The notes below the pieces were generated by a model, which worked only from the letters and a program-made list of their open reading frames with translations, was not told the DNA's origin and ran no database searches. Positions 6,166 to 29,232 of a stretch of DNA of 64,000 nucleotides are shown here, in pieces. A program made the translations under genes and the position numbers. Position 1 is the stretch's first letter, and the number at the start of each line of letters is the position of its first letter. This DNA comes from Fodinicola acaciae (GTDB lineage: Bacteria; Actinomycetota; Actinomycetes; Mycobacteriales; HKI-0501), in assembly GCF_010993745.1 (NCBI RefSeq), contig NZ_WOTN01000002.1, positions 372,001-436,000 of the forward strand, in the 5' to 3' direction.

Positions 6166-6316
6166 CCGCGCCTCCTGCCGGGCACCTCCCCGTGCTGGCT
6201 CTGACCGCGGTGACTCTACTCTGCATGCAGGTCTGCATACAAGTCTTGAAAGTGGGGTGGGGGTGGGTTCTTTGAGTTGCGTTTTGGGAGGTGGGTGCGT
6301 TTTTTGGTTGTTGCGG

Positions 6317-9067: not shown

Positions 9068-9450
9068 AGCACCGCGGTGGCGATGATCTCGACCATCGCC
9101 TGAGGGTCGAAAAGCTCGCTGACACCGAGCAAAGCCATGGCCGGGTAGTGCCGTCCCAGGTGGGATCGGTAGACCCGGCCAAGTGCTTTCAACGATCCGC
9201 GGTATGCCGCCATGTCGGTCGTGTAGATGACCATCGATGCGATGTCCTCCGGTTTTCCGCCGGCGGCGGCCAACGCGGTGACCACATTGGACAGCGCGCG
9301 GTCGAACTGGCCGACGAGGTCGTCGCCGACGATCTTGCCGGACGAGTCCTGCGCGGTCTGGCCGCCGAGATAGACCGTACGACCTGCCACCGTCGCGTGG
9401 GAAAACCCCACGGCCGGACCGAGAGCCGGCGGATTCACCATCTCGTGCAT
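9064..9450 (-). CDS. RidA (YjgF/YER057c/UK114) family protein
   Basis: Small trimer-forming family, 128 residues. RidA proteins hydrolyse reactive enamines/imines to ketones; many diverged members do other steps in catabolic pathways. The YLGGQTAQD, QFDRALSNVVTALAAAGG and VSELFDPQAMVEI blocks are typical. The arginine that true RidA enzymes use for imine deamination appears replaced (YPAMALLGV at about residues 101-109), so canonical deaminase activity is uncertain. Last gene of the minus-strand paaX operon, directly abutting the enoyl-CoA hydratase gene, which suggests action on an amino-substituted ring-opening intermediate (inference). Confidence 0.87.
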   Translation of the reverse strand: MHEMVNPPALGPAVGFSHATVAGRTVYLGGQTAQDSSGKIVGDDLVGQFDRALSNVVTALAAAGGKPEDIASMVIYTTDMAAYRGSLKALGRVYRSHLGRHYPAMALLGVSELFDPQAMVEIIATAVL

Positions 9451-11003: not shown

Positions 11004-11028
11004 ATCACGCTTTCGTTATTGTCGTCAC
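11004..11028. promoter_or_regulatory. Putative PaaX-type operator upstream of the SDR-hydratase-RidA genes
   Basis: A 25-base site agrees at 18 positions with the site at 13534-13558; the block TGTCGTCAC is identical. It occupies the short gap between the FAD oxidoreductase stop and the SDR start, with GATACG just upstream of the SDR GTG on the minus strand. Suggests an internal regulated promoter. PaaX binding is inferred from the proximity of paaX. Confidence 0.5.
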
Positions 11029-12675: not shown

Positions 12676-13503
12676 CTAGTTGGCGATCACGGCGTCAAGG
12701 TGACGCCTGGCCGGTTTCTCCAGTTTTTCGCGTACGCCGGTGAAAAGCTCGGCGGCCTTGGCGCCGTTCCAGCCGGCCGGCAGCAGGTCGGCCGGCAGGC
12801 CGGGGTCCAGATACGGCAGCCGGCGCCATTCGGTCAGGATCGGCACGTAGTCGGCGAAAGCCTCGCGGTCGGTGCCGTCCCGCCGCCGGCTCCACCGCCG
12901 CCACGCCGGTTGCGCGCTGGCGAGAAAGTCCGCGTACGAGTCGTGCAGCCGGTCCAGATCCCACCAGCTGCCGATTTTCTCGCGCAGATCGGAGTTTCGA
13001 TAGTGCGCGCCGAAAAACTCCACGTATGGTGTGAGATCCAGCCGGTCGACCAGTTCGTGCGCGCTGGCTTCCAAATGGGCCGGCGCGATCCAGACGCCGG
13101 GCGAGACCGTGCCGAAGCCGAGCCGGCTCAGCTGCGTACGCAACGTGTGCCGCTTGTCGCGCTCGGACTCCGGCACCGAGAAAACCGCGAGCAGCCAGCC
13201 ATCGTCGGCGGCTGGCCGCGGTGGCGCGAAGATCCGCTGGTCGCCCTCGTCCAGGATGTGCCGCGCCGACTCGGAAAGCGCGTATCCGGCCGCGCCGCCG
13301 ACCTTCTCCGCGGTCAGCATGCCGCGCCGTTTCAACCGCGACACCGACGACCGTACGGCCGGCTCGTCGATGCCGAGGTCGGCGAGCAGCCGGACCAACG
13401 CGGCCACCGAAAACCACCGGCCGGCCTCGCGGCCGTCCAGTCCGTGCAGGCCGTACAGCGTCACGATCAGGTGCCGCGGTTGCGCTTCGGTCACATCCGT
13501 CAC
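12676..13503 (-). CDS. paaX: PaaX-family transcriptional regulator
   Basis: PaaX proteins repress aerobic aryl-CoA (phenylacetate-type) catabolism and are released by the aryl-CoA thioester. Family blocks: PRHLIVTLYGLHG with an N-terminal winged helix (VRSSVSRLKRRGML), central GWLLAVFSVPESERDKRHTLRTQL, and C-terminal WRRLPYLDPGLPADLLPAGWNG. GTG at 13503 (275 residues) is preferred because an upstream GTG at 13533 lies at the edge of the presumed operator; the longer form cannot be excluded. Divergent from a 2-aminobenzoate-CoA-ligase-like gene and first in the run to RidA, so an aminobenzoyl-CoA effector is a reasonable prediction. Confidence 0.82.
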   Translation of the reverse strand: MTDVTEAQPRHLIVTLYGLHGLDGREAGRWFSVAALVRLLADLGIDEPAVRSSVSRLKRRGMLTAEKVGGAAGYALSESARHILDEGDQRIFAPPRPAADDGWLLAVFSVPESERDKRHTLRTQLSRLGFGTVSPGVWIAPAHLEASAHELVDRLDLTPYVEFFGAHYRNSDLREKIGSWWDLDRLHDSYADFLASAQPAWRRWSRRRDGTDREAFADYVPILTEWRRLPYLDPGLPADLLPAGWNGAKAAELFTGVREKLEKPARRHLDAVIAN

Positions 13504-13533
13504 GATAACGGCTGCTCCGGGGTTCGCGCGCAC

Positions 13534-13589: not shown

Positions 13590-15149
13590 ATGCGGCTAAC
13601 CCAGTCTGCGCATCTTGACCCGTTCTGCCGGGAAAACCTTCCGGCGGCGCCGTTGTGGCCGGAGCTGGACTTCACGCTGCCCGAGCTGACATATCCGGAT
13701 TCGGTCAACTGCGCGGCCGCTCTCCTCGACGAGACGATCGAGCGGTTCGGCGCCGACCGGCCGTGCGTGACCGGAGCCGGCGATTCCTGGACATACGGTG
13801 AGCTGGCCGCGCGCGCTCGCACGGTCGCGGCCGTCCTCGTCAACGAATACGGCCTGGTGCCGGGAAACCGCGTGCTGCTGCGGTCACCCAACAATCCGTG
13901 GCTGGTCGCGTGGTGGCTCGGCGTGTTGCTCGCCGGCGGCGTCGTGGTGACCACGATGCCGTTGCTGCGCGCCGGCGAGTTGCGGACCATCGCCGAGATT
14001 TCGCAGCCATCGCTGGCGATCTGCGACACACGCTTTCTCGATGATCTCATCGCGGCGGACATTCCAGGTTTACCGATCGTGCCCTCCGACCAGTTGGCGG
14101 CCGCGCCGCCAGCCGATTTTTCGCACGTACGCACGGCGGCGGACGACGTGGCGATGCTCGCGTTCACCTCCGGCACGACCGGTCGCCCAAAGGCAACCAT
14201 GCATTTCCATCGCGACGTGCTGGCGATCGCCGACACGTACGGCCGGCACGTGCTGCGAGCCGAGCCGACCGATGTTTTCGTTGGCACGCCGCCGCTTGCG
14301 TTCACCTTCGGCCTCGGCGCTCTGGTGGTCTTTCCGATGCGCGCCGGCGCTTCGACCGTACTGTTGGAAAAGCCATCACCGGACACGCTGGCCGCGGCGA
14401 TCGAAGACCACTCCGCGACGGTGGTCTTCACCGCGCCGCTGGCCTATCGCGCGTTGTTGTCGGTCGGAAAACTCGCCTCGTTGCGGCGATGCGTGTCGGC
14501 CGGCGAGCACCTGCCGGAGTCGGTCTGGCGGGAATTCCGCGACCGGACCGGGATCGCCATCCTGGATGGCATCGGCGCGACCGAGATGCTGCACATTTTC
14601 ATTTCCCGCGTGGACGGCGACGACAAACCGGGCTCGACCGGCCGTCCGGTGCCCGGCTATCAGGCGATGGTCGTGGACGAGTCCGGCTCGGCCGTGCCGG
14701 ACGGCACGGCAGGCCTGCTGGCCGTACGCGGTCCGACCGGTTGCCGTTATCTGGCCGACGAACGGCAGCGCAAATACGTGCGAGATGGCTGGAATCTCAC
14801 CGGTGACGTCTATGTGCGCGACTCCGACGGCTATTTCTGGTATCAGGCGCGCAGCGACGACATGATCGTCTCCGCCGGCTACAACATCGCCGGACCGGAG
14901 GTCGAGGAAGCGTTGCTGCGCCATCCCGACGTGGCCGAGTGCGCGGTCGTCGGTGTGCCGGACGACAGCCGCGGCATGATCGTGAAGGCGGTCGTGGTGC
15001 CGGCGGCCGGCGTGACGCCGTCCGCGGAAGTGTTGCAGGACTTCGTGAAGAAGGAGATCGCGCCGTACAAGTATCCGCGGCTGGTCGAGTTTCGCGACGA
15101 GCTGCCGCGTACGGCCACCGGAAAGCTGCAGCGCTTCCGGCTGCGCTGA
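13590..15149 (+). CDS. Aryl-CoA ligase, 2-aminobenzoate/benzoate-CoA ligase type
   Basis: ANL-superfamily adenylating enzyme of 519 residues that would activate an aromatic acid with ATP and CoA. Motifs: A3 FTSGTTGRPKA at about residue 191, PPLAFTFGLGALVVFPM typical of benzoate/2-aminobenzoate-CoA ligases, A5-like DGIGATEMLHIF, A7 LTGDVY, A8 SDDMIVSAGYNIAGPEVEEALL and the A10 lysine in RTATGKLQRF. Divergent from paaX and in the same neighbourhood as a monooxygenase/Old-Yellow-Enzyme fusion known to act on 2-aminobenzoyl-CoA or salicylyl-CoA. Anthranilate is the favoured substrate by context; benzoate or salicylate remain possible. Confidence 0.85.
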   Translation: MRLTQSAHLDPFCRENLPAAPLWPELDFTLPELTYPDSVNCAAALLDETIERFGADRPCVTGAGDSWTYGELAARARTVAAVLVNEYGLVPGNRVLLRSPNNPWLVAWWLGVLLAGGVVVTTMPLLRAGELRTIAEISQPSLAICDTRFLDDLIAADIPGLPIVPSDQLAAAPPADFSHVRTAADDVAMLAFTSGTTGRPKATMHFHRDVLAIADTYGRHVLRAEPTDVFVGTPPLAFTFGLGALVVFPMRAGASTVLLEKPSPDTLAAAIEDHSATVVFTAPLAYRALLSVGKLASLRRCVSAGEHLPESVWREFRDRTGIAILDGIGATEMLHIFISRVDGDDKPGSTGRPVPGYQAMVVDESGSAVPDGTAGLLAVRGPTGCRYLADERQRKYVRDGWNLTGDVYVRDSDGYFWYQARSDDMIVSAGYNIAGPEVEEALLRHPDVAECAVVGVPDDSRGMIVKAVVVPAAGVTPSAEVLQDFVKKEIAPYKYPRLVEFRDELPRTATGKLQRFRLR

Positions 15150-15190: not shown

Positions 15191-16225
15191 ATGGCGGTGA
15201 CGATCCAGGAGGTGGCGCGGGCCGCCAACGTGTCGCCGAGCACCGTGTCCAACGTGCTGAACGGCCGCGACGGCCGGATGTTGCCGGAGACCAAGCTGCG
15301 GGTCGAGGCCGCCATCGCACGGCTGGGTTACCGGCCGAACCGGGCCGCGCGGCAACTGCGTACCGGCCGGATCCAGATGCTCGGCCTGGTGGTGCCGTCG
15401 GTCGCCAACCCGTTCTGGGGGACTTTCGCGCAGCTGGTGGAATCCGTCGCGTTGCGGTCGGGTTTTCGGGTGTTGCTCTGCAACAGCGAGCGTGATCCGG
15501 AGCGTGAGCACGAATATCTCGAGGAGCTGTGGGCCGACGGCGTCGGCAGCGTCGTGCTCTGCTCGTCGCTTCCCTCGATCGCGCACGTCGAGCCGTTTTT
15601 GCGGCAGGGCATGCGGATCGTCGCGTTCGACCGGATCAGCCAGCTCGGCGATCCGGCCGGCCTGACCAACATCAGCGTCGACAACTCGCTCGGCGCGCAG
15701 CTGGCCACCTCGCACCTTCTGGAGCTCGGACACCGGCGATTGGCTTTCGTGTCCGGAAAACTGCAAAGCGTCAACCGGCAGGAGCGGCTCACCGGCTTCC
15801 GGTCCACTGTGGACCGTCTCGGCGTGCCCGCGGTGGTGTGGACCGACGACGGCTCAGGCCGCGGCGGTGACCTGGACGCCGCCGAGGTCGGCCGCGCGGC
15901 CGCGTACGAACTGCTGGACAGCGCCGAGCCGCCGACGGCTTTCTTCGCTGTCAACGACATGTGCGCGCTCGGCGTCTGCGCCGGCGTACGCGACGCCGGT
16001 CTGGTCGTCGGCACCGACGTGTCGGTGGTCGGTTTTGACGACATCGCCTTGGCCGACCTGGCTTTTCCGGCGCTCACAACGATCCGGCAGCCGCTGCCGG
16101 AGATGGCGGCGGCTGCCGTGACGTATCTGGTCGGCTCGGCCGACTCCGGCGCCGGCCAGTCCGTGATGATGCGACCGGAGCTGGTCGTACGCGCGTCGAC
16201 CGCGGCTAACGGCTCGGGGCACTAG
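15191..16225 (+). CDS. LacI-family transcriptional regulator
   Basis: LacI/GalR repressor of 344 residues. N-terminal helix-turn-helix TIQEVARAANVSPSTVSNVLN with the hinge region, then a periplasmic-binding-protein-like effector domain (GLVVPSVANPFWG, VDNSLGAQLATSHLLELGH, VVGFDDIALADLAFPALTTIRQP). Forty-one bases after the CoA ligase on the same strand but with its own GGAGG; the effector could be a sugar (an alginate-lyase-like gene lies downstream) or a catabolic intermediate. The TAG stop lies inside a CTAG that also starts a hairpin. Confidence 0.88.
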   Translation: MAVTIQEVARAANVSPSTVSNVLNGRDGRMLPETKLRVEAAIARLGYRPNRAARQLRTGRIQMLGLVVPSVANPFWGTFAQLVESVALRSGFRVLLCNSERDPEREHEYLEELWADGVGSVVLCSSLPSIAHVEPFLRQGMRIVAFDRISQLGDPAGLTNISVDNSLGAQLATSHLLELGHRRLAFVSGKLQSVNRQERLTGFRSTVDRLGVPAVVWTDDGSGRGGDLDAAEVGRAAAYELLDSAEPPTAFFAVNDMCALGVCAGVRDAGLVVGTDVSVVGFDDIALADLAFPALTTIRQPLPEMAAAAVTYLVGSADSGAGQSVMMRPELVVRASTAANGSGH

Positions 16226-16265
16226 GCCTGAATCCACCAATTACTGACTGGTGGATTCAGGCTAG
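16222..16265. terminator. Hairpin bracketed by CTAG after lacI-type gene
   Basis: Fourteen-base perfect arms (GCCTGAATCCACCA and its complement) around a 9-base loop, without a clear T-run. CTAG occurs at both outer ends (16222-16225 and 16262-16265). It can serve as a bidirectional terminator between the LacI gene and the convergent lyase gene, but the CTAG borders also match the borders of the IS5-type element at 29965-30817, so a miniature insertion is possible. Confidence 0.6.
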
Positions 16266-16590
16266 GAGCCGCGTAACTGAGGAGCCGGCGACAGCTGAGC
16301 CCGGGCGCGGCCCGCCACATAGCGGGACACTCGTCAGTGTCGCCCCGGACATCGAGCCCAGCCCGGCGAGCAGCCACAACGGCATTACTGGCCTCAGCAG
16401 TCACAGCCACCACAGGTGCTGGCGGTCACGCAGACGTGAAGGCCCGTGTTCGTGCATCTGGCGTCGCTGCGCTGCCCGACGATGACCCGGATGGGCAGCT
16501 CTTGGAGCAGGATAGGCCAGCGCTGCTGTGACCGCCGATCCCGACGATGCCTGGAATTCGACTCTCACCCACCCACTGTGTGTGCGACCG
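16266..16590. other. Intergenic stretch without a supported gene
   Basis: About 325 bases between the CTAG hairpin and the end of the lyase gene. Short open frames exist on both strands but none has a start, ribosome site and recognisable similarity. One minus-strand frame ends in a cysteine-rich tail (CTNTGLHVCVTASTC then GGCDC) but has no usual start codon. Possibly decayed sequence. Confidence 0.5.
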
Positions 16591-17352
16591 CTAGGTGTGC
16601 GTCACGGTCAGGCCGTAGATGACGACCTCGCCGTAATTGCTGTCCTCACAGGGATCCGAGTTGCCGCAGTTGGCCTGTGTGTAGGCACCGGCCTTGAAGT
16701 AGTTGCCGCTCTTGCTGCTGGAGATCGTCGTCTGCAGGACGCCGTTGTAGTAGGCCTTGATCTTTCCGCCGCTGGCCACGAACTTGGCCTGGAACCTGGT
16801 GCCGAGCTGGTAGTTGTCGGTCACCAGCTTGTAATGTGTGGTGTCGCCCTTGGTGACGTAGAGTTTGCTGCCTTCCAGCCGGAAAACCGTGACGTCGTCG
16901 TCGGCGTCGTGGATCTGCGCGCCGACCACGTGCGGTTTCTCCGCCGGCAGGTGGGTGAACGCCTCGTCGACCACCATCGTGTGCGTGCCGGAGGTCATCG
17001 ACCAGCTCGCGTTTTTCGTGCCGTTGTCGGACATCTCCCGCAGCTCCGAGCGCGGGTTGGAGGAGCCGCTGGTGGTCACGCCGTTGACCGCGGCGCGAAA
17101 TCGTACGCCGGTGCAGTCCGAGGTCGGCAGGAACCACGGCGACTTCACGTACGTCTTCAGTGCCGGTTGCTTGATCTCGGTCGGTTTTTCGTCCGAGCCA
17201 ATGGGAAGGGTGATCTTCCAGTTGGTCAGGTTGAGCACGTCGGCCGGATACGTGCAGGCCGCCGCCGGTGCGGCCGCATGCGCCGGTGGTCCGAGCGCCG
17301 CACTGACCGCGGCCGCCGCGGCCACCATCGCGATGAGCTTCTTGGCGTACAT
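16591..17352 (-). CDS. Secreted polysaccharide lyase, family 7 (alginate lyase type)
   Basis: Exported beta-jelly-roll lyase of about 253 residues. Signal peptide MYAKKLIAMVAAAAAVSAA ending near AHA; the catalytic-domain motifs of family PL7 are all present: RSELRE, QIHD and YFKAGAYTQ. These carry the Arg, Gln/His and Tyr used for beta-elimination of uronic-acid glycans such as alginate or polyglucuronate. ATG at 17352 starts the signal peptide directly; the frame extends eight codons further. The nearby LacI regulator might control it. It seems unrelated to the aromatic genes around it. Confidence 0.88.
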   Translation of the reverse strand: MYAKKLIAMVAAAAAVSAALGPPAHAAAPAAACTYPADVLNLTNWKITLPIGSDEKPTEIKQPALKTYVKSPWFLPTSDCTGVRFRAAVNGVTTSGSSNPRSELREMSDNGTKNASWSMTSGTHTMVVDEAFTHLPAEKPHVVGAQIHDADDDVTVFRLEGSKLYVTKGDTTHYKLVTDNYQLGTRFQAKFVASGGKIKAYYNGVLQTTISSSKSGNYFKAGAYTQANCGNSDPCEDSNYGEVVIYGLTVTHT

Positions 17353-17819
17353 TTCTCGCCGCCTTTCCAGGTCCACTGTGGAGGGTGAGCGGCTCCAGCC
17401 ACCGGCTGCCGGCGAGACCTGGCGAGCAGGTCAGGCCGGCGACCGCGACATCGCCGGCCTGACAGCGCCAGTGTAGGTGCCACCGGTCGCCGCGCAACCG
17501 CGCTGGCAGGGAAATGCCAGATCTCGCACCGGAAGCAGCGTCCACTGTGGACGGCGGCCGGCGGCGATCGGGGATCCTCGCCATTGGCGCCGCCTTCCGG
17601 TCGGTCAGCTCGGTGCATCGATTTACTGGAACCGGCTCACGAGGCTAGGTGCTGCGGTGGACGGTGTCAATGCAACGATCAACTTCCTGCCATCGGCCTT
17701 GACACGGTCGACGGTCAGCGAGGTTTTCCATCCGTGCCGTCTTGGCCGCGGGGGGTGGCGACGGCGGCGAAGATCGGGAAAGCTCCACACCGGACACCGT
17801 CGAGGCGAGGAGGTGCGTC
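17353..17819. other. Divergent intergenic region with a 13-bp hairpin
   Basis: 467 bases between the lyase (minus) and an SDR gene (plus). It holds a perfect inverted repeat, 17430-17442 with 17451-17463 around an 8-base loop, and two copies of the palindrome GTCCACTGTGGA (17371 and 17540). ATTTACTGGAACCGGCTC near 17620-17640 resembles LacI-type half-sites. No coding frame here is supported. Confidence 0.5.
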
Positions 17820-18608
17820 GTGGCCGATCTGTCCGGCCGGGTTGCCGTGGTCACCGGCGGCGCGACGATCATCGGCGCGGCGGTCGTACGCGTGATGCAC
17901 GCCGCCGGAGCGAAAGTCGTCATCGCCGACATCGACGGCGACGGTGCCGACCGGGTGGCGGCGGAGTGCGGTGACGGCGTTGTCAGCATTCACACGGACA
18001 TCACCGACGACGCCGCTTTGGTGTCCTTAGTGGACGGTGCGGTGGCCGAGTTTGGCCAGCTCGACAATGTCGTCAATCTGGCTTGCACCTACGTCGACGA
18101 CGGCTTTACGTCGACGCGCGCACAATGGCTGGAAGCCCTGAATGTCAACGTCGTCAGCGCCTCGATGCTGGTGCACGCGGCCTATCAGCAGCTCAAGGTC
18201 AGCGGCCGCGGCGCGGTGGTGAATTTCGCCTCTGTCTCGGCGAATGTCGCGCAGACCGGGCGCTGGCTCTATCCGGTCAGCAAGGCGGCGATCGTACAGC
18301 TGACCAGGAACATGGCGATGGACCTGGCGGCCGACCGGATCCGCGTCAACGCGGTGTCACCGGGATGGACGTGGTCGGCGGTGATGGACCAGCTCAGCGG
18401 CTCGGACCGGCGGAAAACCGACGCGGTGGCGGCGCCTTTCCATCTGACGAGGCGGGTCGGCGATCCGGAGGAAGTGGCCGAGGTCGTCGCGTTTCTGTGT
18501 TCTGACGCGGCAAGCGTGGTCACCGGTGCGACCTGGGCCGCCGACGGCGGCTACTCGGCGATGGGGCCGGAACAGGCCATCTCCGCCATTCCGCTGCTGA
18601 GCCAATAA
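17820..18608 (+). CDS. Short-chain dehydrogenase next to StyA-type monooxygenase
   Basis: SDR of 262 residues with GTG start at 17820 behind GAGGAGG. The nucleotide motif is TGGATIIG and the active site Ser (NFASVSANVA) with Tyr-x-x-x-Lys in YPVSKAAIV; a C-terminal ATWAADGGYS closes the fold. NNAG is replaced by NLAC. It precedes the styrene/indole-monooxygenase-like gene by 36 bases and is surely co-transcribed. In the Acinetobacter iif indole operon an SDR accompanies the monooxygenase and oxidises the indole diol; the same pairing is seen here, so oxidation of a hydroxylated indole or aromatic alcohol is the working inference. Confidence 0.82.
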   Translation: MADLSGRVAVVTGGATIIGAAVVRVMHAAGAKVVIADIDGDGADRVAAECGDGVVSIHTDITDDAALVSLVDGAVAEFGQLDNVVNLACTYVDDGFTSTRAQWLEALNVNVVSASMLVHAAYQQLKVSGRGAVVNFASVSANVAQTGRWLYPVSKAAIVQLTRNMAMDLAADRIRVNAVSPGWTWSAVMDQLSGSDRRKTDAVAAPFHLTRRVGDPEEVAEVVAFLCSDAASVVTGATWAADGGYSAMGPEQAISAIPLLSQ

Positions 18609-18644: not shown

Positions 18645-19886
18645 ATGCCCAAAGTCACCGTGGTCGGTGCCGGCCAGTCCGGCCTGCAGCTGGCGATCGG
18701 CCTGCTGGACAACGGTTTCGATGTGACCGTCGTGTCCAACCGTACGCCGGAGCAGATCGAACAGGGCCGGGTGATGTCCAGCCAGTGCATGTTCGACACC
18801 GCACTGCAGCACGAACGCGACCTGCGGCTGAACTCCTGGGAAGAGCAGTGTCCACCGGTGGAAGGCATCGCGTTTGCCGTGCCGGCGCCGCCGGACAGCC
18901 CGCAGGCCGGCGGAAAGGCCATTTCCTGGTCGGCGAAACTGGACCGGATCGCGCAGGCGGTCGACCAGCGGATCAAGTTTCCCGGCTGGATGGCCGAGTT
19001 TGTCAAGCGTGGCGGCGATCTGGTGATCCACGAGGCGACCGCCGACGACCTGGAGGCGTATGCGCGCGACTCCGACCTGGTCGTGGTGGCGGCCGGAAAA
19101 GGCGACATCGCACGGCTTTTCGAGCGCGACGCCGAGCGCAGTCCATACGACAAGCCGCAGCGCTCGCTCGCGTTGACCTATCTGCACGGAGTCGAGCCGC
19201 GGCCGGAGCACTCCGCGGTCTGCTTCAACCTGGTCCCCGGGCTCGGCGAATACTTCATCTTCCCGGCACTGACGCTGAGCGGTCCGTGCGAGATCATGGT
19301 TTTCGAGGCGGTGCCGGACGGTCCGATGGATCGCTGGTCGCAGGCGACCGATCCGGAGAAACACCTGGACGTGTCGCTGTCCATCGTGCGTGACTTCGTG
19401 CCGTGGGAATACGAGCGGTGTGAGAATGCCACGCTGACCGACGAAAACGGCGTGCTGACCGGTCGTTACGCGCCGACCGTACGCAAGCCCGTCGCCACCC
19501 TGCCCTCCGGCGCGAAGATTCTCGGCCTCGCCGACGTCGTCGTGCTCAACGACCCGATCACCGGCCAGGGCTCCAACAATGCCAGCAAATGCGCCGCGTC
19601 CTACCTGAAGTCCATTGTGGACCATGGCGACCAGCCGTACGACGAGGCCTTCCTGCGCGGCACGTTCGAGACTTTCTGGGACGACGTGCAGTATTCGACG
19701 ATCTGGACCAACGCACTGCTCGCGCCGCCACCCGAGCACGTGCTGAAGCTGCTCACCGCCGCCGGCGACGAGCCGAGGATCGCGCACCGTTTCGCGAACG
19801 ACTTCGACGACCCGCGCGACTTCTTCAACTGGTTCATGGACCCGGACAAGGCCGACGCCTACCTCGCCGAGCTGGCCACGTCCTGA
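18645..19886 (+). CDS. StyA-type (styrene/indole) FAD monooxygenase
   Basis: Group E flavoprotein monooxygenase of 413 residues. N-terminal VVGAGQSGLQLAIGL FAD motif, QCMFDTALQHERDLRLNSWE and the C-terminal LNDPITGQGSNNASKCA segment are the hallmarks of StyA/indole oxygenases, which epoxidise styrene or indole with FADH2 supplied by a separate reductase. No StyB-type flavin reductase lies in the immediate neighbourhood. With the preceding SDR and the downstream genes for anthranilate-type acids, indole is an attractive substrate. The Shine-Dalgarno-like ACAGGAG lies upstream of ATG 18645. Confidence 0.85.
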   Translation: MPKVTVVGAGQSGLQLAIGLLDNGFDVTVVSNRTPEQIEQGRVMSSQCMFDTALQHERDLRLNSWEEQCPPVEGIAFAVPAPPDSPQAGGKAISWSAKLDRIAQAVDQRIKFPGWMAEFVKRGGDLVIHEATADDLEAYARDSDLVVVAAGKGDIARLFERDAERSPYDKPQRSLALTYLHGVEPRPEHSAVCFNLVPGLGEYFIFPALTLSGPCEIMVFEAVPDGPMDRWSQATDPEKHLDVSLSIVRDFVPWEYERCENATLTDENGVLTGRYAPTVRKPVATLPSGAKILGLADVVVLNDPITGQGSNNASKCAASYLKSIVDHGDQPYDEAFLRGTFETFWDDVQYSTIWTNALLAPPPEHVLKLLTAAGDEPRIAHRFANDFDDPRDFFNWFMDPDKADAYLAELATS

Positions 19887-19928: not shown

Positions 19929-21341
19929 TCAGCGGACGTTGAGGATTTTCTCGATCTTCTGGCCGATCCCCAGCAGCGTACGGTCGGTCCACGGCAGGCC
20001 GTCCAGGCTCAGGCCGACCGGCAGGCCGTCCGGCACCGGCGTCATCGGTACGGTCAGGCCGGGCAGGCCGGCGATGCTGCCCGGCGAGGTGTTGCGCACC
20101 ATGGTGGGGAAAGTCGGAAACCGTTCGGACCCCAGCTCGATCTGCCCGTCGGTGTCCGCCAGCGGACCGGCGCATCGTGGTGTGGTCGGGAAAACCAGGG
20201 CATCCAGCCGGTATGTGCTGAACAGGTTCCAGTAGATGTCGCGCAACCGCATCGGGCCCTCGGCGAGAGCCGCGCGGTATTCGTGTTCGGCGACGCGGTT
20301 GACGGCGCCGTGGACGATCTCCTCGAGGAACAGCCGGCGTACGTCCGGGCCGCTGATTTTTCCGGCCAGATCGGCAAGGCTCGTGTCCGGCACGTAATGG
20401 CCGAGATATTTGGTGAGCTCCACACCGGCCTCGTACGTGGTGATCACCTGGCCGACATGCTGTTCGACCCGCCGGAACTCGCCGGTCGGCACGTCGACCA
20501 GGGTGACGCCGGCGCCGGCGAGCACGGCCAGCGTGTGCTGGAAAGCGGCGCTGGTCTCCGGGCCGAGTGGCTCGGTGAAATACTCGCGCGGCACGCCGAG
20601 CCGGATTTCCCTTATCGGAGCGACGATCGTTTCCATGTCGTCGTCGGCCAGCACGGCGTCGAGCAACATCAGGTCGGCGACGGTGCGCGCGATGGGTCCG
20701 ATGGTGTCCCGCGTCGAGGAAAGCGGTGTGACGCCGGCGCTCGGATAGCGGCCGGTGGTTGGCCGGAAACCACAGACGCCGTTCAGAGCGGCCGGAATGC
20801 GCACGGAACCGCCGGTGTCGGTGCCGAGCCCGGCGAGACCGCCGCGAGCCACCGCGACGGCCGTGCCGCCACTGCTGCCACCGGCGAAACAGCTGCTGTC
20901 CCAGGCATTGCGCGTCGGTCCCGCGGCCGAAGACGTGCCGGTGATGCCAAAAGCCAGCTCGTGCATGTTGGTTTTGCCGATGACGAAGGCACCCGCGTCG
21001 ACCAGCCGCTGGACGGCCGGTGCGTCGGCGCGCGGTGTGAAACCGGCCAGGGCCGGCGTGCCGGCGGTGTTGGGCATGCCGGCGACGTGGATGTTGTCCT
21101 TGACCACCAACGGAATTCCGTGCAGCCTGCCGCGTTGCGACGACCGGTCGTGATGGCGTGCGGCGGTGAGCGCGCGACTGTGGTCGAGCGTCACGAATGC
21201 GCCGAGTTCGGCATCGCCTTCGGCCTGCCGCAAGGCCCATTCGGTGAGCGCGGTGCTGGTCGCGCCACTTCCGAGCCGTTCCAGCGCCGCGGAAACCGTG
21301 AGCATGCCGCTCTGCTCGATTTCCTCGCGCAGCGTGGTCAC
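19929..21341 (-). CDS. Amidase (amidase-signature family)
   Basis: Hydrolase of about 470 residues with the Ser-cis-Ser-Lys amidase signature: catalytic Lys in VVKDNIHV, and the Gly/Ser-rich block SCFAGGSSGGTAVAVARG followed by GLGTDTGGSVRIPAALNG. Family members hydrolyse carboxamides such as indole-3-acetamide, nicotinamide or allophanate. GTG at 21341 is chosen because it overlaps the transporter stop (GTGA) and puts the family N terminus in frame; a longer frame runs antisense through the transporter gene. With the adjacent aromatic genes, an aryl or indolyl amide substrate is possible but unproven. Confidence 0.85.
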   Translation of the reverse strand: MTTLREEIEQSGMLTVSAALERLGSGATSTALTEWALRQAEGDAELGAFVTLDHSRALTAARHHDRSSQRGRLHGIPLVVKDNIHVAGMPNTAGTPALAGFTPRADAPAVQRLVDAGAFVIGKTNMHELAFGITGTSSAAGPTRNAWDSSCFAGGSSGGTAVAVARGGLAGLGTDTGGSVRIPAALNGVCGFRPTTGRYPSAGVTPLSSTRDTIGPIARTVADLMLLDAVLADDDMETIVAPIREIRLGVPREYFTEPLGPETSAAFQHTLAVLAGAGVTLVDVPTGEFRRVEQHVGQVITTYEAGVELTKYLGHYVPDTSLADLAGKISGPDVRRLFLEEIVHGAVNRVAEHEYRAALAEGPMRLRDIYWNLFSTYRLDALVFPTTPRCAGPLADTDGQIELGSERFPTFPTMVRNTSPGSIAGLPGLTVPMTPVPDGLPVGLSLDGLPWTDRTLLGIGQKIEKILNVR

Positions 21342-22765
21342 GGCGAGATGTCCCCGAGCCGGCGGCCGCGCGTACGCACCGCGAGCAGGTTGACCGCGGC
21401 CGCGATCACCAGGAATCCGCCGATCAGCAGCAAAGCACCGAGCACCGACAGGTTGCCGAGCAGGCCGGCGATGACGAACACGCCGATGCCGCCGCCGATG
21501 TGTCCGACGCTGTCGGCGATCGCGTAGCCGCTGGTGCGGAACCTGGTCGGAAAACTCTCGGCGGTCAGCGAATACTGTGGCGCGACCCAGACGTTCTGGC
21601 CGAAGAACAGGACGATCGCGCCGACCAGCGCGACGATCATGCTCGCGCCGGCCAGCGCCACCAGCAGTGCGCCGAGGACGGTGATGCCGGCACCGACCGC
21701 CAGCCAGTATTTTCGCTCCAGTTTCTCGGCGAACAGGATCGCAACGACCGCGCTCGCGATGAAGCCGATGAGGCCGACGGCGGCGATGACGCCGGCGGTG
21801 GACGGCGAGAAGTTCAACGCGGTGAGCACACTGGTGAAACCGGCGCCGAAGCCGTAGAGCGTGACATAGCCGGCCATCCAGGCGACCGCCAACACCACAC
21901 ATCGCAGCAAGTACGTGCGGCTGCCGAAAAGTTGCCGGTAGGCGCCTTTCTGGATCACCGGCTCGGCCGTCACCTCCGGCTGCGGATCCGGCAGCGGATC
22001 AAACCGCGAAGCGCGTTTTTCCATGTCCTGTACGACCGCCAGCGCCTCGGCCAGTCGGCCGCGAGCGAGCAGCCAACGCGGCGACTCCGGCAGCTGGAAG
22101 CGCAGCGCGACCGACACCAGCGCGAGAATCGCGCCGAGCGCGTACATCCACCGCCAGCCGTTCGAGAAATCGGCGCTGGCCAGCGCAAACGGCAGGCCCT
22201 GCGGCCACGGCGCGCTCGGGGTGGTGAGCAGCAGGCCGAGCCAGACCCCAAGCGCGGAGCCAATCGCGGCGAGGACGAACAGCACAGAGGTGTATTTGGC
22301 TCTGGCCGCGCGTGGTGCCACCTCGTTGACGTAGGTGTTGACGATCGCCAGGTCGGCGCCGATGCCGACACCGGTGATGAACCGCGAGGCGGTGAAGTTT
22401 CCGTAATCCTGCGACAAAGCCGTGTAAAGCGAGCCGAGGCCGGTGAGCAGCATGGTGAGGACGAGCATGTGCCGGCGGCCGATCCGGTCGGCCAGCGGTG
22501 CGAAGCCGATCGCGCCGATGCCATAGCCGACCAGGCTCAGCAGGATCGGCAGATTCAGGAAACCGACGGCGTTGGCCGGCGTGCAGCCGGGCGTGATCGC
22601 GACGCAGGTCTGGATGAACGAGACGTTGATGTCGAAGATGTCGTACTGGACGAAGAGCACGCCGAGGCCGAGGATCGCGATGAACAGGCGCGACAGGCTC
22701 CAGGTCGGGATCCGGTCGAGCCGGCCGGTCAGCTGCGCCGCGGTGTCGGCCTGGTCGACTGTCAC
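21338..22765 (-). CDS. MFS transporter, aromatic-acid/sugar-acid type
   Basis: Major facilitator permease of about 475 residues with twelve predicted helices. Motifs: LADRIGRRHMLVLTML after helix 2, SRFITGVGIGADLAIVNTYVNE, and PESPRWLLARGR at the end of helix 6. GTG start at 22765 follows GAGGCGGG. Upstream of and translationally coupled to the amidase, and divergent from an AraC regulator. Probably imports the amidase substrate or an aromatic acid. Confidence 0.85.
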   Translation of the reverse strand: MTVDQADTAAQLTGRLDRIPTWSLSRLFIAILGLGVLFVQYDIFDINVSFIQTCVAITPGCTPANAVGFLNLPILLSLVGYGIGAIGFAPLADRIGRRHMLVLTMLLTGLGSLYTALSQDYGNFTASRFITGVGIGADLAIVNTYVNEVAPRAARAKYTSVLFVLAAIGSALGVWLGLLLTTPSAPWPQGLPFALASADFSNGWRWMYALGAILALVSVALRFQLPESPRWLLARGRLAEALAVVQDMEKRASRFDPLPDPQPEVTAEPVIQKGAYRQLFGSRTYLLRCVVLAVAWMAGYVTLYGFGAGFTSVLTALNFSPSTAGVIAAVGLIGFIASAVVAILFAEKLERKYWLAVGAGITVLGALLVALAGASMIVALVGAIVLFFGQNVWVAPQYSLTAESFPTRFRTSGYAIADSVGHIGGGIGVFVIAGLLGNLSVLGALLLIGGFLVIAAAVNLLAVRTRGRRLGDISP

Positions 22766-22906: not shown

Positions 22907-23878
22907 ATGAGCGCACAGCTTTCCGGCGTTCTGGACCTCTCGACGGAGCCGATCACTCCTCGTGAACGCTTTGACTACTGGCAGGATGTCATCTGCGACG
23001 TTTTTGTCAAGCTGGAGGCCGCACGGCTGACCGAGGCCGACGGGTTCACCGCCAAGCTCAACTCGGTGCAGTCCGGCAACGTGCGGCTCAGCCGGATCGC
23101 CTGCCAGCCACATCAGGTCACCAGAGCCAAACGCGGCATCGCCCGCGACTCGGAGCAGTATTACCTGGTCAATTTGCTGATGTCCGGCCGCTGCGACGCG
23201 CTGACGCAGGACGGGCGTACGGTCGCGCTCGAGCCAGGCGACTTCGCGGTTTCGGCCACTTCCCGGCCTTACCGGCTGCGCTTCGAGACCGCCTTCGACA
23301 TGTTTGTCTTCCACATCCCGGAAACCATGCTCGACGGCCTGCTGCCGGGTGCGCCCAGCAGCTCCGCGCTGGTGGTCGGCCAGGACACCGCGACCAACGC
23401 GCTGTTGGCGCCACTGCTGGAAAACATCGTACGGAAGGCGTCGACGCGGTCGAGCGCGAGTGTGCCGCACCTGACCGCGGCGGCGGTCGACCTGGTGGCC
23501 GCGTCGCTGACCGAGTCCTATGAGCTCGGGTCGACGCCGTCGACGCGTACGGCGCACGTTTTGCGCGCCAAGACCTACATCGAGGAGCGCGCCGGCGATC
23601 CGGAGCTGTCACCGGCCGAGATCGCCGCCGCCAGCAGCGTGTCGCCGCGCTATCTGCATGCCTTGTTCCAGGCCGAAGGCACGACGGTGGCGCGCTATCT
23701 GCTCGCCCGCCGGCTGGCGCACGCGGCTCGTGACCTGGTCGACGCGCGGCTGGCGTCGATCCCGGTCGGCGAGATCGGGCGGCGCGCCGGTTTCAAGGAC
23801 GCGTCGCATTTCACCCGGTCGTTCAAGGAAAAGTACGGCGTGACGCCGCGCGAGTATCGCTCCGGCGACCGACACTAG
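22907..23878 (+). CDS. AraC-family transcriptional regulator
   Basis: Activator of 323 residues. The N-terminal AraC-binding-like sensor domain (FDYWQDVICDVFVKLE..., typical of regulators of aromatic and indole catabolism) is followed by two C-terminal helix-turn-helices (SPAEIAAASSVSPRYLHALFQ and IGRRAGFKDASHFTRSFKEKYG). Divergent from the transporter-amidase pair. Regulators of this subfamily are found with anthranilate and indole operons, so it probably activates one or both flanking units. Its TAG shares CTAG with the convergent peroxiredoxin stop. Confidence 0.87.
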   Translation: MSAQLSGVLDLSTEPITPRERFDYWQDVICDVFVKLEAARLTEADGFTAKLNSVQSGNVRLSRIACQPHQVTRAKRGIARDSEQYYLVNLLMSGRCDALTQDGRTVALEPGDFAVSATSRPYRLRFETAFDMFVFHIPETMLDGLLPGAPSSSALVVGQDTATNALLAPLLENIVRKASTRSSASVPHLTAAAVDLVAASLTESYELGSTPSTRTAHVLRAKTYIEERAGDPELSPAEIAAASSVSPRYLHALFQAEGTTVARYLLARRLAHAARDLVDARLASIPVGEIGRRAGFKDASHFTRSFKEKYGVTPREYRSGDRH

Positions 23879-24416: not shown

Positions 24417-24441
24417 ATAGCGTTGTCTTGACGAGCGTCGC
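24417..24441 (+). promoter_or_regulatory. Putative operator/promoter of monooxygenase-cyclase-ThDP operon
   Basis: Shares 20 of 25 positions with the paaX/ligase site (ATAGCGTT, TCTTGAC, CGTC in the same order and spacing). The -35 TTGACG is at 24428-24433, with TATCCT at 24452-24457 as a possible -10, and GGGGAGG before GTG 24485. A separate 12-base palindrome, AGTAGTACTACT, lies at 24393-24404 between this site and the divergent peroxiredoxin gene. Confidence 0.55.
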
Positions 24442-24484
24442 AGGGGCGACATATCCTGGCGGACACGAGACCGGGGAGGCGGCT

Positions 24485-26839
24485 GTGCGGATCGCGGTGG
24501 TCGGCGGCGGGCCCGGCGGCCTGTACTTTTCCGCGCTGGTCAAGCAACTCGGGCCACGGCACGAGGTGACCGTCTGGGAACGCAACGCGCCGGACGACAC
24601 GTTCGGCTTCGGCGTCGTGCTGTCGGACGAGACGCTCGGCGGCATCGAGCACGCCGATCCGGCGGTCTTCGCCGAGATGCAGCGGCATTTCGCTCGCTGG
24701 GACGACATCGACGTGCACCTGCCGGGCGCGCCGGTGACCACCTCCGGAGGCCACGGTTTTGCCGCCATGAGCCGCAAGAAGCTGCTGCAGATCCTCCAGG
24801 AAAGGTGCCGGCGACTCGGGGTGGAGCTGCGGTTTCGTGAGCAGGCGCCGGAAGTCGGCGAGCTGTCCCGGTCGTACGACCTGGTGCTCGGCTGCGATGG
24901 CGTGAATTCGACCGTACGCGCCACATATGCCGACACCTTCCGGCCGTCGGTCGACCATCGCCGCTGCCGCTACATGTGGCTCGGCACCGATCTGGTCTTC
25001 GACGCGTTCACCTTCCACATCCTGCAGACGCCATACGGAATCATGCAGATCCACGGCTATCCCTACGACCGCACCGGCAGCACTTTCATCATCGAGATGG
25101 CCGACCGCGTGTGGCAGCGCGCCGGGTTCACCGACGTTTCCCTGAAGCCGGGCGAAAGCGACCTCGCCTCGATCGAGACGGTCCGGCAGCTGTGTGCCGA
25201 CATCCTGGACGGCCACCGGGTCTTCGCCAACAACTCCAAGTGGTTGAGTTTCGCCACCGTACGCAACGAAACCTGGCGGCATGGCAACGTGGTGCTGCTC
25301 GGCGACGCGGCGCACACGGCGCATTTCTCCATCGGGTCGGGCACCAAGCTGGCGATGGAGGACGCGCTCGCGTTGGCCGCCTGCCTGCACGAAAACACCG
25401 ATGTCCAGACCGCCCTCGCGGCGTACGAGGCGGAGCGCAAGCCGGTGGTCGAGTCCACCCAACGAGCCGCGCAGGCGAGCCTGGAGTGGTTCGAGAACAT
25501 CGGCCAGTACGCGCATCAGGACCGGGAACAGTTCGCCTTCAACATTCTCACGCGCAGCCGCCGCGTCACCTACGAAAACCTGGCGATGCGCGATCCGGAG
25601 TTCGTCGCCGGACTCGACGAGTGGTTCGCCCGGCAGGCCGGCGGCGACCTGCGGCCACCGATGTTCCAGCCGTTCCGGCTTGGCCGGCTGGAGCTGAAAA
25701 ACCGCGTCATCGTCTCGGCGATGGACATGTATTCCGCCGAAAACGGCGTGCCGACCGACTTTCACCTGGTGCACCTGGGAAGCAAGGCGCTCGGCGGCGC
25801 GGCGCTGGTGATGACCGAGATGGTGTGCGTCTCGCCGGACGGCCGGATCACGCCTGGCTGCACCGGCCTTTACGCGCCGGAGCAGGAAAACGCCTGGCGC
25901 CGCGTGGTGGATTTCGTGCACACCTCGACGGACGCGCGGATCGGTGTCCAACTGGGACACTCCGGTCGCAAGGGGTCGACCCGGCTGATGTGGGAAGGCA
26001 TCGACCAGCCGCTGCCGGACGGAAACTGGGACATCTGCGGACCGTCGCCGCTGCCGTACGCGCCGTTCAGCCAGCGGCCACGTGAGCTGACGCCGGCCGA
26101 GATGGCGCAGATCACGGCCGATTTCGAGGCGTCGGCGCTGGCCGCGGCGCGGGCCGGATTCGACCTGCTGGAGCTGCACTGTGCACACGGCTATCTGTTG
26201 TCGTCGTTCATCTCGCCGCTGTCCAACCACCGCACCGATGAATACGGTGGTTCGCTGGATGCGCGGCTGCGCTATCCGCTGGAGGTTTTCGACGCCGTAC
26301 GAGCCGCCTGGCCGGCCGAGCGGCCGATGACCGTACGCATCTCGGCCACCGACTGGCATGACGGCGGCATCGACGCCGACGACGCGGTGGAGATCGCGCG
26401 TGCTTTCGCCGAGCACGGCGCCGACGGCATCGACGTGTCCACCGGACAGGTGGTTTCCACGGAAAAACCGGCATTCGGCCGCAGTTACCAGACACCGTAC
26501 GCGGACCGCATCCGCAACGAGATCGGCCGCAAATACGGCGTCGCGGTCATCGCGGTCGGCGCGATTTCGTCGTACGACGACGTCAACTCGCTGTTGCTGG
26601 CCGGCCGGGCCGACCTGTGTGCGCTCGGCCGCACGCACCTCTACGATCCGCAGTGGACGTTGCACGCCGCGGTGGAGCAGGATTACACCGGTCCGGCGGC
26701 GGCCTGGCCGGTCCAGTTCGCCGCCGGCCGGCGCAAGCCGCCGAGCGGTCGCACCGATGGGCCGAAACCGCGGCTGGCGTTGGTCCGCGATGGCGCGCCG
26801 GCCACCCGGCACCGGAGGTGGCGGCCAAAGGAGGGGTGA
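24485..26839 (+). CDS. Aryl-CoA monooxygenase/Old-Yellow-Enzyme fusion (2-aminobenzoyl-CoA monooxygenase/reductase or salicylyl-CoA 5-hydroxylase type)
   Basis: Two-domain flavoprotein of 784 residues. Residues 1 to about 385 form an aromatic-ring monooxygenase: VRIAVVGGGPGGLYFSAL for FAD, and LLGDAAHTAHFSIGSGTKLA near residue 273. From about 390 to 770 comes an OYE-type FMN reductase: FQPFRLGRLELKNRV start, HCAHGYLLSSFISPLSNHR at about 564 and EYGGSLDARLRYPLE. This fusion is known for 2-aminobenzoyl-CoA monooxygenase/reductase, which hydroxylates and then hydrogenates the ring, and for salicylyl-CoA 5-hydroxylase. GTG 24485 puts the FAD motif at the N terminus behind GGGGAGG. First gene of a three-gene unit; the nearby CoA ligase would make its substrate. 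Confidence 0.86.
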   Translation: MRIAVVGGGPGGLYFSALVKQLGPRHEVTVWERNAPDDTFGFGVVLSDETLGGIEHADPAVFAEMQRHFARWDDIDVHLPGAPVTTSGGHGFAAMSRKKLLQILQERCRRLGVELRFREQAPEVGELSRSYDLVLGCDGVNSTVRATYADTFRPSVDHRRCRYMWLGTDLVFDAFTFHILQTPYGIMQIHGYPYDRTGSTFIIEMADRVWQRAGFTDVSLKPGESDLASIETVRQLCADILDGHRVFANNSKWLSFATVRNETWRHGNVVLLGDAAHTAHFSIGSGTKLAMEDALALAACLHENTDVQTALAAYEAERKPVVESTQRAAQASLEWFENIGQYAHQDREQFAFNILTRSRRVTYENLAMRDPEFVAGLDEWFARQAGGDLRPPMFQPFRLGRLELKNRVIVSAMDMYSAENGVPTDFHLVHLGSKALGGAALVMTEMVCVSPDGRITPGCTGLYAPEQENAWRRVVDFVHTSTDARIGVQLGHSGRKGSTRLMWEGIDQPLPDGNWDICGPSPLPYAPFSQRPRELTPAEMAQITADFEASALAAARAGFDLLELHCAHGYLLSSFISPLSNHRTDEYGGSLDARLRYPLEVFDAVRAAWPAERPMTVRISATDWHDGGIDADDAVEIARAFAEHGADGIDVSTGQVVSTEKPAFGRSYQTPYADRIRNEIGRKYGVAVIAVGAISSYDDVNSLLLAGRADLCALGRTHLYDPQWTLHAAVEQDYTGPAAAWPVQFAAGRRKPPSGRTDGPKPRLALVRDGAPATRHRRWRPKEG

Positions 26840-26842: not shown

Positions 26843-27610
26843 TTGTCGGTACTGCGGGACTTTGCCGAGCAGCTCGGGTCCGGCCGGATCCGGGTCGTCG
26901 ACCTGACCGCCCCGTTGCGGGACAGCACGCCGATTCTGCAGCTGCCGCCGCCGTTCGGAAACACGGTGCCGTTCCAGCTGGAGGAAATCAGCCGATACGA
27001 CGACCGCGGGCCGGCCTGGTACTGGAACAACATCCACACCGGCGAACACACCGGCACGCATCTGGACGCACCGGTGCACTGGGTCACCGGTAAGGACGGC
27101 CACAGCGTCGCCGACATTCCGCCGGCCGAGCTGATCGCGCCGGCAAGTGTGCTGGATTTCGCCGGAAAAGCCCAGGCCGATCCCGACTTTCTGTTGCGGG
27201 TCAGCGATGTCGAGGCGTGGGAGGCTGAGCACGGCACGGTCGGCGGCTGGTTTCTCTATCGCACCGGCTGGGACGCGCGCAGCGGCAGCCAGGACGCTTT
27301 CCTCAACGCCGACGAAAACGGACCGCACACCCCGGGGATCGCCGCCGACTGCGTCGCCTGGCTGCTCGCCGAGCGTACGATCGTCGGCATCGGCGTCGAA
27401 ACGGTCGGCACCGACGCCGGCGCGGCGCATTCTTCCGACCCGCCGTTTCCGTGCCACGGCGCGCTGGCCGGATCCGGTCGTTATGGCTTGACGCAGCTGC
27501 AAAACCTGGCCGAGCTGCCGCCGACCGGCGCCGTCGTCATCGCCACCGGCCTGCCGATCGTCGGCGGTTCGGGCAGTCCAGCACGCGTGCTCGGCCTGGT
27601 GGAGCCGTGA
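26843..27610 (+). CDS. Cyclase-family metal-dependent hydrolase (kynurenine formamidase/isatin hydrolase fold)
   Basis: Protein of 255 residues of the metal-dependent amidohydrolase ('cyclase') family that includes kynurenine formamidase and isatin hydrolase. The metal motif H-x-G-T-H-x-D is visible in GEHTGTHLDAPVHW at about residues 70-83. It opens the ring amide of isatin or cleaves formyl-kynurenine in characterised members. TTG start at 26843 follows AGGAGGGG; its TGA overlaps the GTG of the ThDP enzyme. Sitting directly after an aryl-CoA monooxygenase fusion and before a ThDP enzyme, isatin hydrolysis to isatinate is a good candidate reaction (inference). Confidence 0.84.
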   Translation: MSVLRDFAEQLGSGRIRVVDLTAPLRDSTPILQLPPPFGNTVPFQLEEISRYDDRGPAWYWNNIHTGEHTGTHLDAPVHWVTGKDGHSVADIPPAELIAPASVLDFAGKAQADPDFLLRVSDVEAWEAEHGTVGGWFLYRTGWDARSGSQDAFLNADENGPHTPGIAADCVAWLLAERTIVGIGVETVGTDAGAAHSSDPPFPCHGALAGSGRYGLTQLQNLAELPPTGAVVIATGLPIVGGSGSPARVLGLVEP

Positions 27611-29232
27611 CCGTTGCCGAGCTGGTCGGCCGCGCGCTCGCCGGTTTCGGCGCCGATCACGTGTTTGGCGTGGTCGGCAGCGGAAACTTCCACGTCACCA
27701 ACGCGATGGTCGCGGCAGGTGCGCGTTTTGTGGCCGCCCGCCACGAAGGCGGTGCGGCGACCATGGCCGACGCGTACGCGCGCACCAGCGGCACGCTCGG
27801 GGTGCTCTCGGTGCACCAGGGATGTGGTCTCACCAACGCGATGACCGGCATCACCGAGGCGGCCAAGAGCCGCACGCCGATGATCGTGCTCGCGGCGGAC
27901 ACCGCCGGTGCGGCCGTACGGTCGAACTTCCGCGTCGACCAGGACGGTCTGGCGACCGCCGTCGGTGCGGTGAGCGAGCGCGTTTACGGTCCAGCTACTG
28001 CGATCGATGATGTCGTACGCGCCTGTCGCCGCGCCGTCGAGGGACGGCGTACGGTTGTGCTCAACCTGCCGTTGGACGTGCAGGCCGCGCCTGCATCGGG
28101 TGCCGACGTTCCGGCGATTTTGCCGCCACAGGTGGCAAATCCGGATCCGGCGGCGGTCGAGGCACTAGCGCGCGTGCTGCTCACCGCACAACGACCGGTT
28201 TTCATCGCCGGCCGAGGAGCGCGGCACGCTCGGGCCGAGTTGCGCCGGCTGGCCTCGACCTGCGGTGCCCTGCTGGCGACTTCCGCGGTGGTCAATGGGC
28301 TTTTCGCCGGCGATCCGTGGTCTTTGGGGATATCCGGCGGATTCGCGACGCCGCTGGCCGCCGAGCTGATCGGCTCGGCAGACCTGATCGTCGGCTGGGG
28401 TGCGTCGCTGAACATGTGGACGATGCGCCATGGCGCGTTGATCGCGCCCGACGCGACGGTCGTGCAGGTGGATCTCGAGCCGGACGCGATCGGTGCGCAT
28501 CGACCGGTCGACCTCGGCGTCGTCGGCGACGTGGCGCGTACGGCCGAGGCTTTGGTCGACCTGGTGGCCTCTGCCGACGGATATCGGCAGCCGGCGATTC
28601 GCGAGCGGATCGCCACCGAAGGTCGCTGGCGCGACGTGCGGCACGACGACGTGTCCACAGTGGACCGCATCGATCCACGTACGCTCTCGATCGCGCTCGA
28701 CGACGTGCTTCCCGACGAGCGTGTCGTGGCCGTCGACTCCGGGAACTTCATGGGATATCCGGCGGCCTATCTGTCGGTGCCGGACGAGCGCGGTTTCTGC
28801 TTCACCCAGGCATATCAGTCGATCGGTCTCGGCCTGGCGACCGCGATCGGCGCCGCTTTGGCCCAACCGCAACGACTTCCGGTCGCGGCGCTCGGCGATG
28901 GTGGTGCCTTGATGTCCATCGCCGAGGTGGACACGGTCGTACGGCTCGGCCTGCCGATGGCGATCGTCATCTACAACGACGAGGCCTACGGCGCCGAGGT
29001 GCACCATTTCGGCCCGCACGGCTACAACCTGGACACCGTCGTCTTTCCGGAGACCGACATCGCCGCCATCGGCCGCGGCTTCGGCGCCGACGGCATCACC
29101 GTACGCAAACCGTCCGATGTGGACGATCTGCGCGACTGGTTGGCCGGTCCACGAGACGGACCGATCGTCGTCGACGCGAAGGTCACCAGCGGACCGTCCT
29201 GGTGGCTGGAGGAAGCCTTCAAAGGTCACTAG
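27607..29232 (+). CDS. ThDP-dependent 2-oxoacid decarboxylase-like enzyme
   Basis: Thiamine-diphosphate enzyme of 541 residues, distinct from the one at 1392. Catalytic Glu in AARHEGGAATMADAYAR, ThDP/Mg motif GDGGALMSIAEVD ending with YNDEAYG. Closest by appearance to benzoylformate decarboxylase/acetolactate-synthase-like proteins. GTG at 27607 overlaps the preceding stop (GTGA). Since isatinate is 2-aminobenzoylformate, a decarboxylase beside an isatin-hydrolase-like gene could remove its oxo-acid carboxylate. The TAG stop is in a CTAG that adjoins a broken transposase gene. Confidence 0.83.
   Translation: MTVAELVGRALAGFGADHVFGVVGSGNFHVTNAMVAAGARFVAARHEGGAATMADAYARTSGTLGVLSVHQGCGLTNAMTGITEAAKSRTPMIVLAADTAGAAVRSNFRVDQDGLATAVGAVSERVYGPATAIDDVVRACRRAVEGRRTVVLNLPLDVQAAPASGADVPAILPPQVANPDPAAVEALARVLLTAQRPVFIAGRGARHARAELRRLASTCGALLATSAVVNGLFAGDPWSLGISGGFATPLAAELIGSADLIVGWGASLNMWTMRHGALIAPDATVVQVDLEPDAIGAHRPVDLGVVGDVARTAEALVDLVASADGYRQPAIRERIATEGRWRDVRHDDVSTVDRIDPRTLSIALDDVLPDERVVAVDSGNFMGYPAAYLSVPDERGFCFTQAYQSIGLGLATAIGAALAQPQRLPVAALGDGGALMSIAEVDTVVRLGLPMAIVIYNDEAYGAEVHHFGPHGYNLDTVVFPETDIAAIGRGFGADGITVRKPSDVDDLRDWLAGPRDGPIVVDAKVTSGPSWWLEEAFKGH

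Follow-up and report, generated by a model that had tools for sequence, protein, structure and literature searches.

Do two overlapping genes in the genome of Fodinicola acaciae encode consecutive steps in the degradation of isatin? For decades, isatin and isatinate have been observed when indole and auxin are degraded. A search of the literature, mostly of journals readable without subscription, found no paper in which a gene is named for the reaction that follows isatinate. We analysed a stretch of 64,000 nt (referred to as the window; assembly GCF_010993745.1, contig NZ_WOTN01000002.1, positions 372,001-436,000, forward strand), for which an initial annotation had described an isatin hydrolase-like gene coupled to a benzoylformate-decarboxylase-like ThDP gene. 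The two genes are:

26843-27610, + strand: cyclase-family gene, isatin-hydrolase-like (255 aa; Pfam Cyclase, E 9e-37)
27607-29232, + strand: gene for a ThDP-dependent enzyme (541 aa; Pfam TPP N, M and C domains)

Both open reading frames were found as described earlier, including the overlap in GTGA. The cyclase gene starts with TTG, preceded by the ribosome-binding-like sequence AAAGGAGG, and ends with TGA at 27608-27610; the GTG start of the ThDP gene (27607-27609) lies within this stop. A 593-aa reading frame from 27451 was rejected as the ThDP gene, since it is just the longest mechanical reading and the start is the GTG at 27607. The placement of the pair downstream of an aryl-CoA monooxygenase fusion was also borne out: the fusion gene (24428-26839), the product of which scores above the PRK08255 cut-off, stops 3 bp ahead of the cyclase start.

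The coupling of the two genes, claimed for this locus, is widely conserved. We scanned named genomes for relatives and took the best 80 ThDP orthologues. The cyclase adjoined the ThDP gene in 79 of these 80; in the exception, a Cryobacterium, a fusion and a ligase stood in place of the cyclase. Among the 76 pairs with both genes at full length, 53 overlapped (mostly by 4 bp), 13 were spaced by 0-30 bp, 3 were divergent and 2 had the reverse order. We also surveyed 395 actinomycete genomes and examined 40 loci around ThDP matches. The cyclase was present in 25 of them, always near the ThDP gene and on the same strand, and the loci lacking it had ThDP proteins of at most 56% identity. The pair was found on two Deinococcus plasmids and one Rhodococcus plasmid; on an Agrobacterium plasmid the two genes are separated by 5 kb. 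Apart from close relatives, the loci had no flanking genes in common; the pair itself is therefore the unit that is kept. We concluded that the pair is a real conserved module across dozens of genera, beyond chance.

The nearest solved relatives of the cyclase were isatin hydrolases (5nmp, 4j0n, 5nnb and 5nna; E 1e-71 to 1e-82). Its identity was 51.6% to RsIHA of Ralstonia solanacearum, and 49.2% and 46.6% to LaIHB and LaIHA of Labrenzia/Roseibium aggregata. With these three enzymes it shares the fold family, the HxGTHxDxPxH motif, the Mn ligands, the catalytic Asp/His and the Trp59/Trp61 swap. The metal motif HxG[T/A]HxDxPxH reads HTGTHLDAPVH in the window cyclase, in agreement with the H-x-G-T-H-x-D reported initially. 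Equivalents of LaIHA His69, His73, Asp75, His79, Asp193, His207, Trp80 and Leu34 were found in 87/87 paired cyclases, and all Mn-binding and catalytic residues were present in every one of the 87. The aromatic pocket motif WxW/FxW reads WYW in the window cyclase, and W61 was kept in 78 of the 87. In some pairs, from Arthrobacter and others, Trp61 is replaced by His, and substrates may therefore vary.

The window cyclase differs from LaIHA, LaIHB and RsIHA in its ThDP partner enzyme and in the published signature of isatin-hydrolase activity, GLQC/GLAS (PMC6117287), in place of which it has GLTQ. This holds for most ThDP-paired cyclases (T in 85/87, Q in 76/87) and alters the Mn-proximal Gln219 and the proton-gate residue. 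LaIHA, LaIHB and RsIHA formed a clade with support of 100/99 in our tree, and the window cyclase and the paired cyclases fell outside it, in a deeper order that was poorly supported. In view of the GLTQ signature and the place outside the characterised clade, we name the protein isatin-hydrolase-like and do not treat it as a proven member. The name given initially could be kept to this extent: by identity (47-52%) the cyclase goes with the isatin hydrolases and not with N-formylkynurenine hydrolases, but the GLQC/GLAS signature is absent. The isatin-hydrolase-like subfamily to which we assign it probably acts as isatin hydrolases do.

Two other assignments were rejected. The score with the equivalog model TIGR03035 of the kynurenine formamidase KynB was 29.6 bits versus a cut-off of 223, and phloroglucinol-type cyclohydrolases share a paralogous fold only, with substrate residues that differ from those of the window cyclase. 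An AlphaFold model of the cyclase was set aside for its pLDDT below 50 at residues 48-84, the active site. The window contains a second cyclase-family gene (46485-47177, + strand) with 31-36% identity to the first; the WxW and GLxx motifs are missing from it, and no ThDP neighbour was found.

The ThDP protein contains all three domains of ThDP enzymes, and no curated family claims it; its score with NCBIfam PRK07092 was 147 bits, under the cut-off of 493. The initial comparison with benzoylformate decarboxylase could be retained only in part. Ser25, Glu47 and His70 correspond to Ser26, Glu47 and His70 of that enzyme and occur in 110/110 sequences, and the domain order is that of MdlC (1bfd). 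However, identity is only 24-26%, His281 is replaced by Thr272 in 110/110 sequences, and Leu461 of MdlC corresponds to Glu464 in the window protein. Paralogues at 36-39% identity have Thr at position 70. His70 and the Ser26 equivalent are also kept in relatives of 47-55% identity without a cyclase and are therefore markers of a wider subfamily; Gln401, Met382 and His275 follow the pairing more closely. At L056-L060, ThDP relatives of 50-55% identity keep His70 and Ser25, with no cyclase nearby. The solved relatives of the protein are generic (synthases, pyruvate oxidases and benzaldehyde lyase), and a structure search with its model returned the generic ThDP fold with no family standing out.

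The further genes around the pair are listed below.

24428-26839, + strand: FAD monooxygenase/old-yellow-enzyme fusion of the salicylyl-CoA 5-hydroxylase / 2-aminobenzoyl-CoA monooxygenase-reductase type (PRK08255)
13590-15149, + strand: benzoate/2-aminobenzoate-CoA ligase-like AMP-binding enzyme (AMP-binding domain)
18645-19886, + strand: styrene/indole-type flavoprotein monooxygenase, proposed first attack on indole (Smoa_sbd; 571 bits to 7z4x)
17820-18608, + strand: SDR dehydrogenase, proposed diol/dioxindole step (58-66% identity to the SDR of related clusters)
11025-12665, - strand: CrtO-like FAD oxidoreductase (42% to a gene of Azospirillum, L078)
10275-10997, - strand: SDR, putative CoA-thioester lower pathway (41% to the SDR of the Deinococcus operon described below)
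9451-10278, - strand: enoyl-CoA hydratase (PRK08258 equivalog, 393 bits, cut-off 330)
9064-9450, - strand: RidA-family imine deaminase (39% to RidA of the Deinococcus operon)
12676-13533, - strand: PaaX-family regulator (three PaaX domains)
22907-23878, + strand: AraC-family regulator (AraC_binding_2 and HTH_18)
19929-21341, - strand: amidase, nearest to indoleacetamide hydrolase (PRK07488, 511 bits, cut-off 532), pathway link uncertain
21338-22765, - strand: MFS transporter (from its translation only), pathway link uncertain

The fusion, with the domains FAD_binding_3 and Oxidored_FMN, reached 1229 bits with PRK08255 ('bifunctional salicylyl-CoA 5-hydroxylase/oxidoreductase'; cut-off 1078). 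The ligase scored 334 bits with the benzoate-CoA ligase family, below the cut-off of 375. The solved relative 7z4x of the flavoprotein monooxygenase is an entry that we take to be the indole monooxygenase VpIndA1. Homologues of the CrtO-like gene occur near isatin hydrolases at L054, L077, L078, L152, L158, L171 and L172, in the genera Azospirillum, Alloyangia, Tritonibacter, Tsukamurella, Williamsia and Kineococcus. This recurrence suggests a role in the conversion of dioxindole to isatin, and the CrtO-like enzyme is thus a candidate dioxindole-to-isatin oxidase. By its gene content, the window appears to hold most of a pathway from indole via anthranilate-CoA. A LacI-type regulator and a secreted-type polysaccharide-lyase-like protein (15191-17376), between the ligase and SDR genes, are apparently outside the pathway. 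On the minus strand, 1392-6339 carries an acetolactate-synthase-like ThDP gene, then a DAO-family oxidase, an Asp/Glu racemase-like gene and a shikimate-type transporter; this group resembles a separate catabolic operon.

In the window, and likewise at nine other loci (L039, L040, L054, L073, L084, L085, L148, L149 and L158), the fusion gene and the pair are no more than 10 kb apart. An operon of Deinococcus psychrotolerans comprises, in this order, the fusion, SDR, MarR, enoyl-CoA hydratase, acyl-CoA dehydrogenase, AMP-ligase, cyclase, ThDP and RidA genes. Most pairs, those of Streptomyces among them, are isolated and have no fusion nearby, and the genome-wide co-occurrence with the fusion was weak and not significant (12/47 versus 51/347, Fisher p 0.09). 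No aldehyde dehydrogenase gene was found in the window or in the Deinococcus operon, and nine distant ones are located elsewhere in the F. acaciae genome. Near the pair, a search of more than 100 loci revealed a convincing aldehyde dehydrogenase only in Rhodococcus R138.

Two known systems can be compared. The iif/ind cluster of Acinetobacter and Cupriavidus (PMC6221969) likewise has a Group E monooxygenase, an SDR and an AraC regulator and leads from indole to anthranilate, and in Cupriavidus 2-aminobenzoyl-CoA genes are also shared. The window has a CrtO-like oxidase, an isatin-hydrolase-like cyclase and a ThDP enzyme; the iif cluster has no isatin gene and forms anthranilate from 3-hydroxyindolin-2-one by the cofactor-independent IifA. 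Doubts about isatin as a genuine intermediate persisted in 2018 (PMC6221969). The iad auxin locus of Variovorax and Roseibium (PMC12633357) also has an isatin hydrolase (IadI) and also ends in anthranilate, but it begins with the Rieske enzyme IadCDE acting on IAA, and its nine-gene core has no ThDP gene. A Roseibium iad locus encodes a cyclase almost the same in sequence as LaIHA, which was solved with isatinate, and IadI-type genes are therefore isatin hydrolases. In Variovorax, C8H7NO3 and C7H7NO were seen between IadI and anthranilate, and the last steps have no assigned gene (PMC12633357); the two formulae match those of isatinate and 2-aminobenzaldehyde. A paper on a skatole cluster (PMC13101512) makes no mention of isatin, a cyclase or a thiamine gene.

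Another ThDP enzyme, an indolepyruvate:ferredoxin oxidoreductase-like alpha/beta pair, accompanies the isatin hydrolase in clusters of proteobacteria and Tsukamurella. Among 57 plasmids with an isatin-hydrolase-like cyclase, 40 carried the alpha subunit of this type (39 within 30 kb), 5 carried the present ThDP enzyme and none carried both; the chance figure of 4e-123 in this comparison is inflated by closely related plasmids. The cluster of Alloyangia pacifica contains monooxygenase, flavin reductase, fusion, SDR, RidA, hydrolase, CrtO-like and oxidoreductase genes. Cyclases beside the oxidoreductase include those of Tritonibacter (91% to LaIHB) and B. multivorans (78% to RsIHA). Isatin hydrolases beside the alpha/beta pair were also noted at L077, L082, L163, L165, L170, L171 and L172. 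Both ThDP enzymes stand at the same pathway position with ThDP-dependent 2-oxoacid chemistry, whereas their subunits are unrelated and the oxidoreductase would yield 2-aminobenzoyl-CoA directly; it is a candidate isatinate:acceptor oxidoreductase. The alternation of two unrelated 2-oxoacid ThDP enzymes at one position agrees with isatinate being the substrate. We lean slightly towards the view that this ThDP family is devoted to isatinate decarboxylation and fills the step from isatinate to anthranilate, which has no assigned gene, and that this decarboxylase and the 2-aminobenzoyl-CoA-making enzyme are two interchangeable ThDP solutions for isatinate.

From the gene structure, the conserved pairing, the conserved catalytic residues and the cluster content, all of which are observed, we infer the substrates, products and step order of the pair. 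It is likely that the two enzymes catalyse consecutive steps in a branch of indole (or auxin) degradation that passes through isatin and goes on via isatinate, 2-aminobenzaldehyde and anthranilate to 2-aminobenzoyl-CoA. The cyclase, as a Mn-type isatin hydrolase of a new subfamily, would hydrolyse isatin with water to isatinate (2-aminobenzoylformate). The ThDP enzyme would decarboxylate isatinate, in the simplest case with 2-aminobenzaldehyde and CO2 as products, an aldehyde dehydrogenase encoded outside the cluster would oxidize the aldehyde to anthranilate, and the clustered ligase and monooxygenase/reductase fusion would take anthranilate on via 2-aminobenzoyl-CoA. The assignment of isatin and isatinate is well supported. 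The direct formation of 2-aminobenzaldehyde, as opposed to anthranilate, is the least certain part and the weakest link, because no aldehyde dehydrogenase is clustered.

Oxidative decarboxylation of isatinate straight to anthranilate, with electrons passed to a bound flavin, quinone or O2, would make an aldehyde dehydrogenase dispensable. The solved proteins closest to the ThDP enzyme include pyruvate oxidase/PoxB and FAD-containing ThDP enzymes, the cluster has a ligase without an aldehyde dehydrogenase, and the alternative oxidoreductase of related clusters would likewise be oxidative. We nevertheless regard this route as unlikely: the BFDC-type Ser and His70 favour simple decarboxylation, C7H7NO was seen in Variovorax (PMC12633357), and Rhodococcus R138 does have an aldehyde dehydrogenase in its cluster.

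It is still less probable that the substrates of the pair are another cyclic amide or 1,3-dicarbonyl with its 2-oxoacid (compare dihydrophloroglucinol cyclohydrolase), or a substituted isatin, and that the link to the fusion seen in some genomes is secondary. The change to GLTQ, the loss of Trp61 in some pairs and the absence of the fusion near most pairs are in line with such substrates, and C-C bond cleavage is possible for this fold, as seen for DPGC (PMC10470551). Against this stand the indole cluster of the window itself and the 47-52% identity of the cyclase with the three isatin hydrolases of known structure; moreover, at the two substrate positions that differ in DPGC (Ile32, Leu34), the window cyclase has Leu32 and Leu34, which many isatin hydrolases also have. 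Carboligation by the ThDP enzyme, of a lyase or acetolactate-synthase-like type and joining a 2-aminobenzoyl unit to an aldehyde or oxoacid, appears very improbable, even though the best structural matches were a 2-hydroxyketo-acid synthase, acetolactate synthases and benzaldehyde lyase. No acceptor-making gene is conserved, the next clustered steps require anthranilate, and carboligation in vitro is common among ThDP decarboxylases.

If the reading of the pair as isatin hydrolase and isatinate decarboxylase is true, it would supply the gene for a step in indole and auxin degradation that lacks a known gene. As the two-gene module occurs in many actinomycetes and two Deinococcus, and more loosely spaced in an Agrobacterium, the route is testable with two small proteins. 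The pair would also serve as a marker for the removal of indole and auxin by the isatin route in soil and plant microbiomes.
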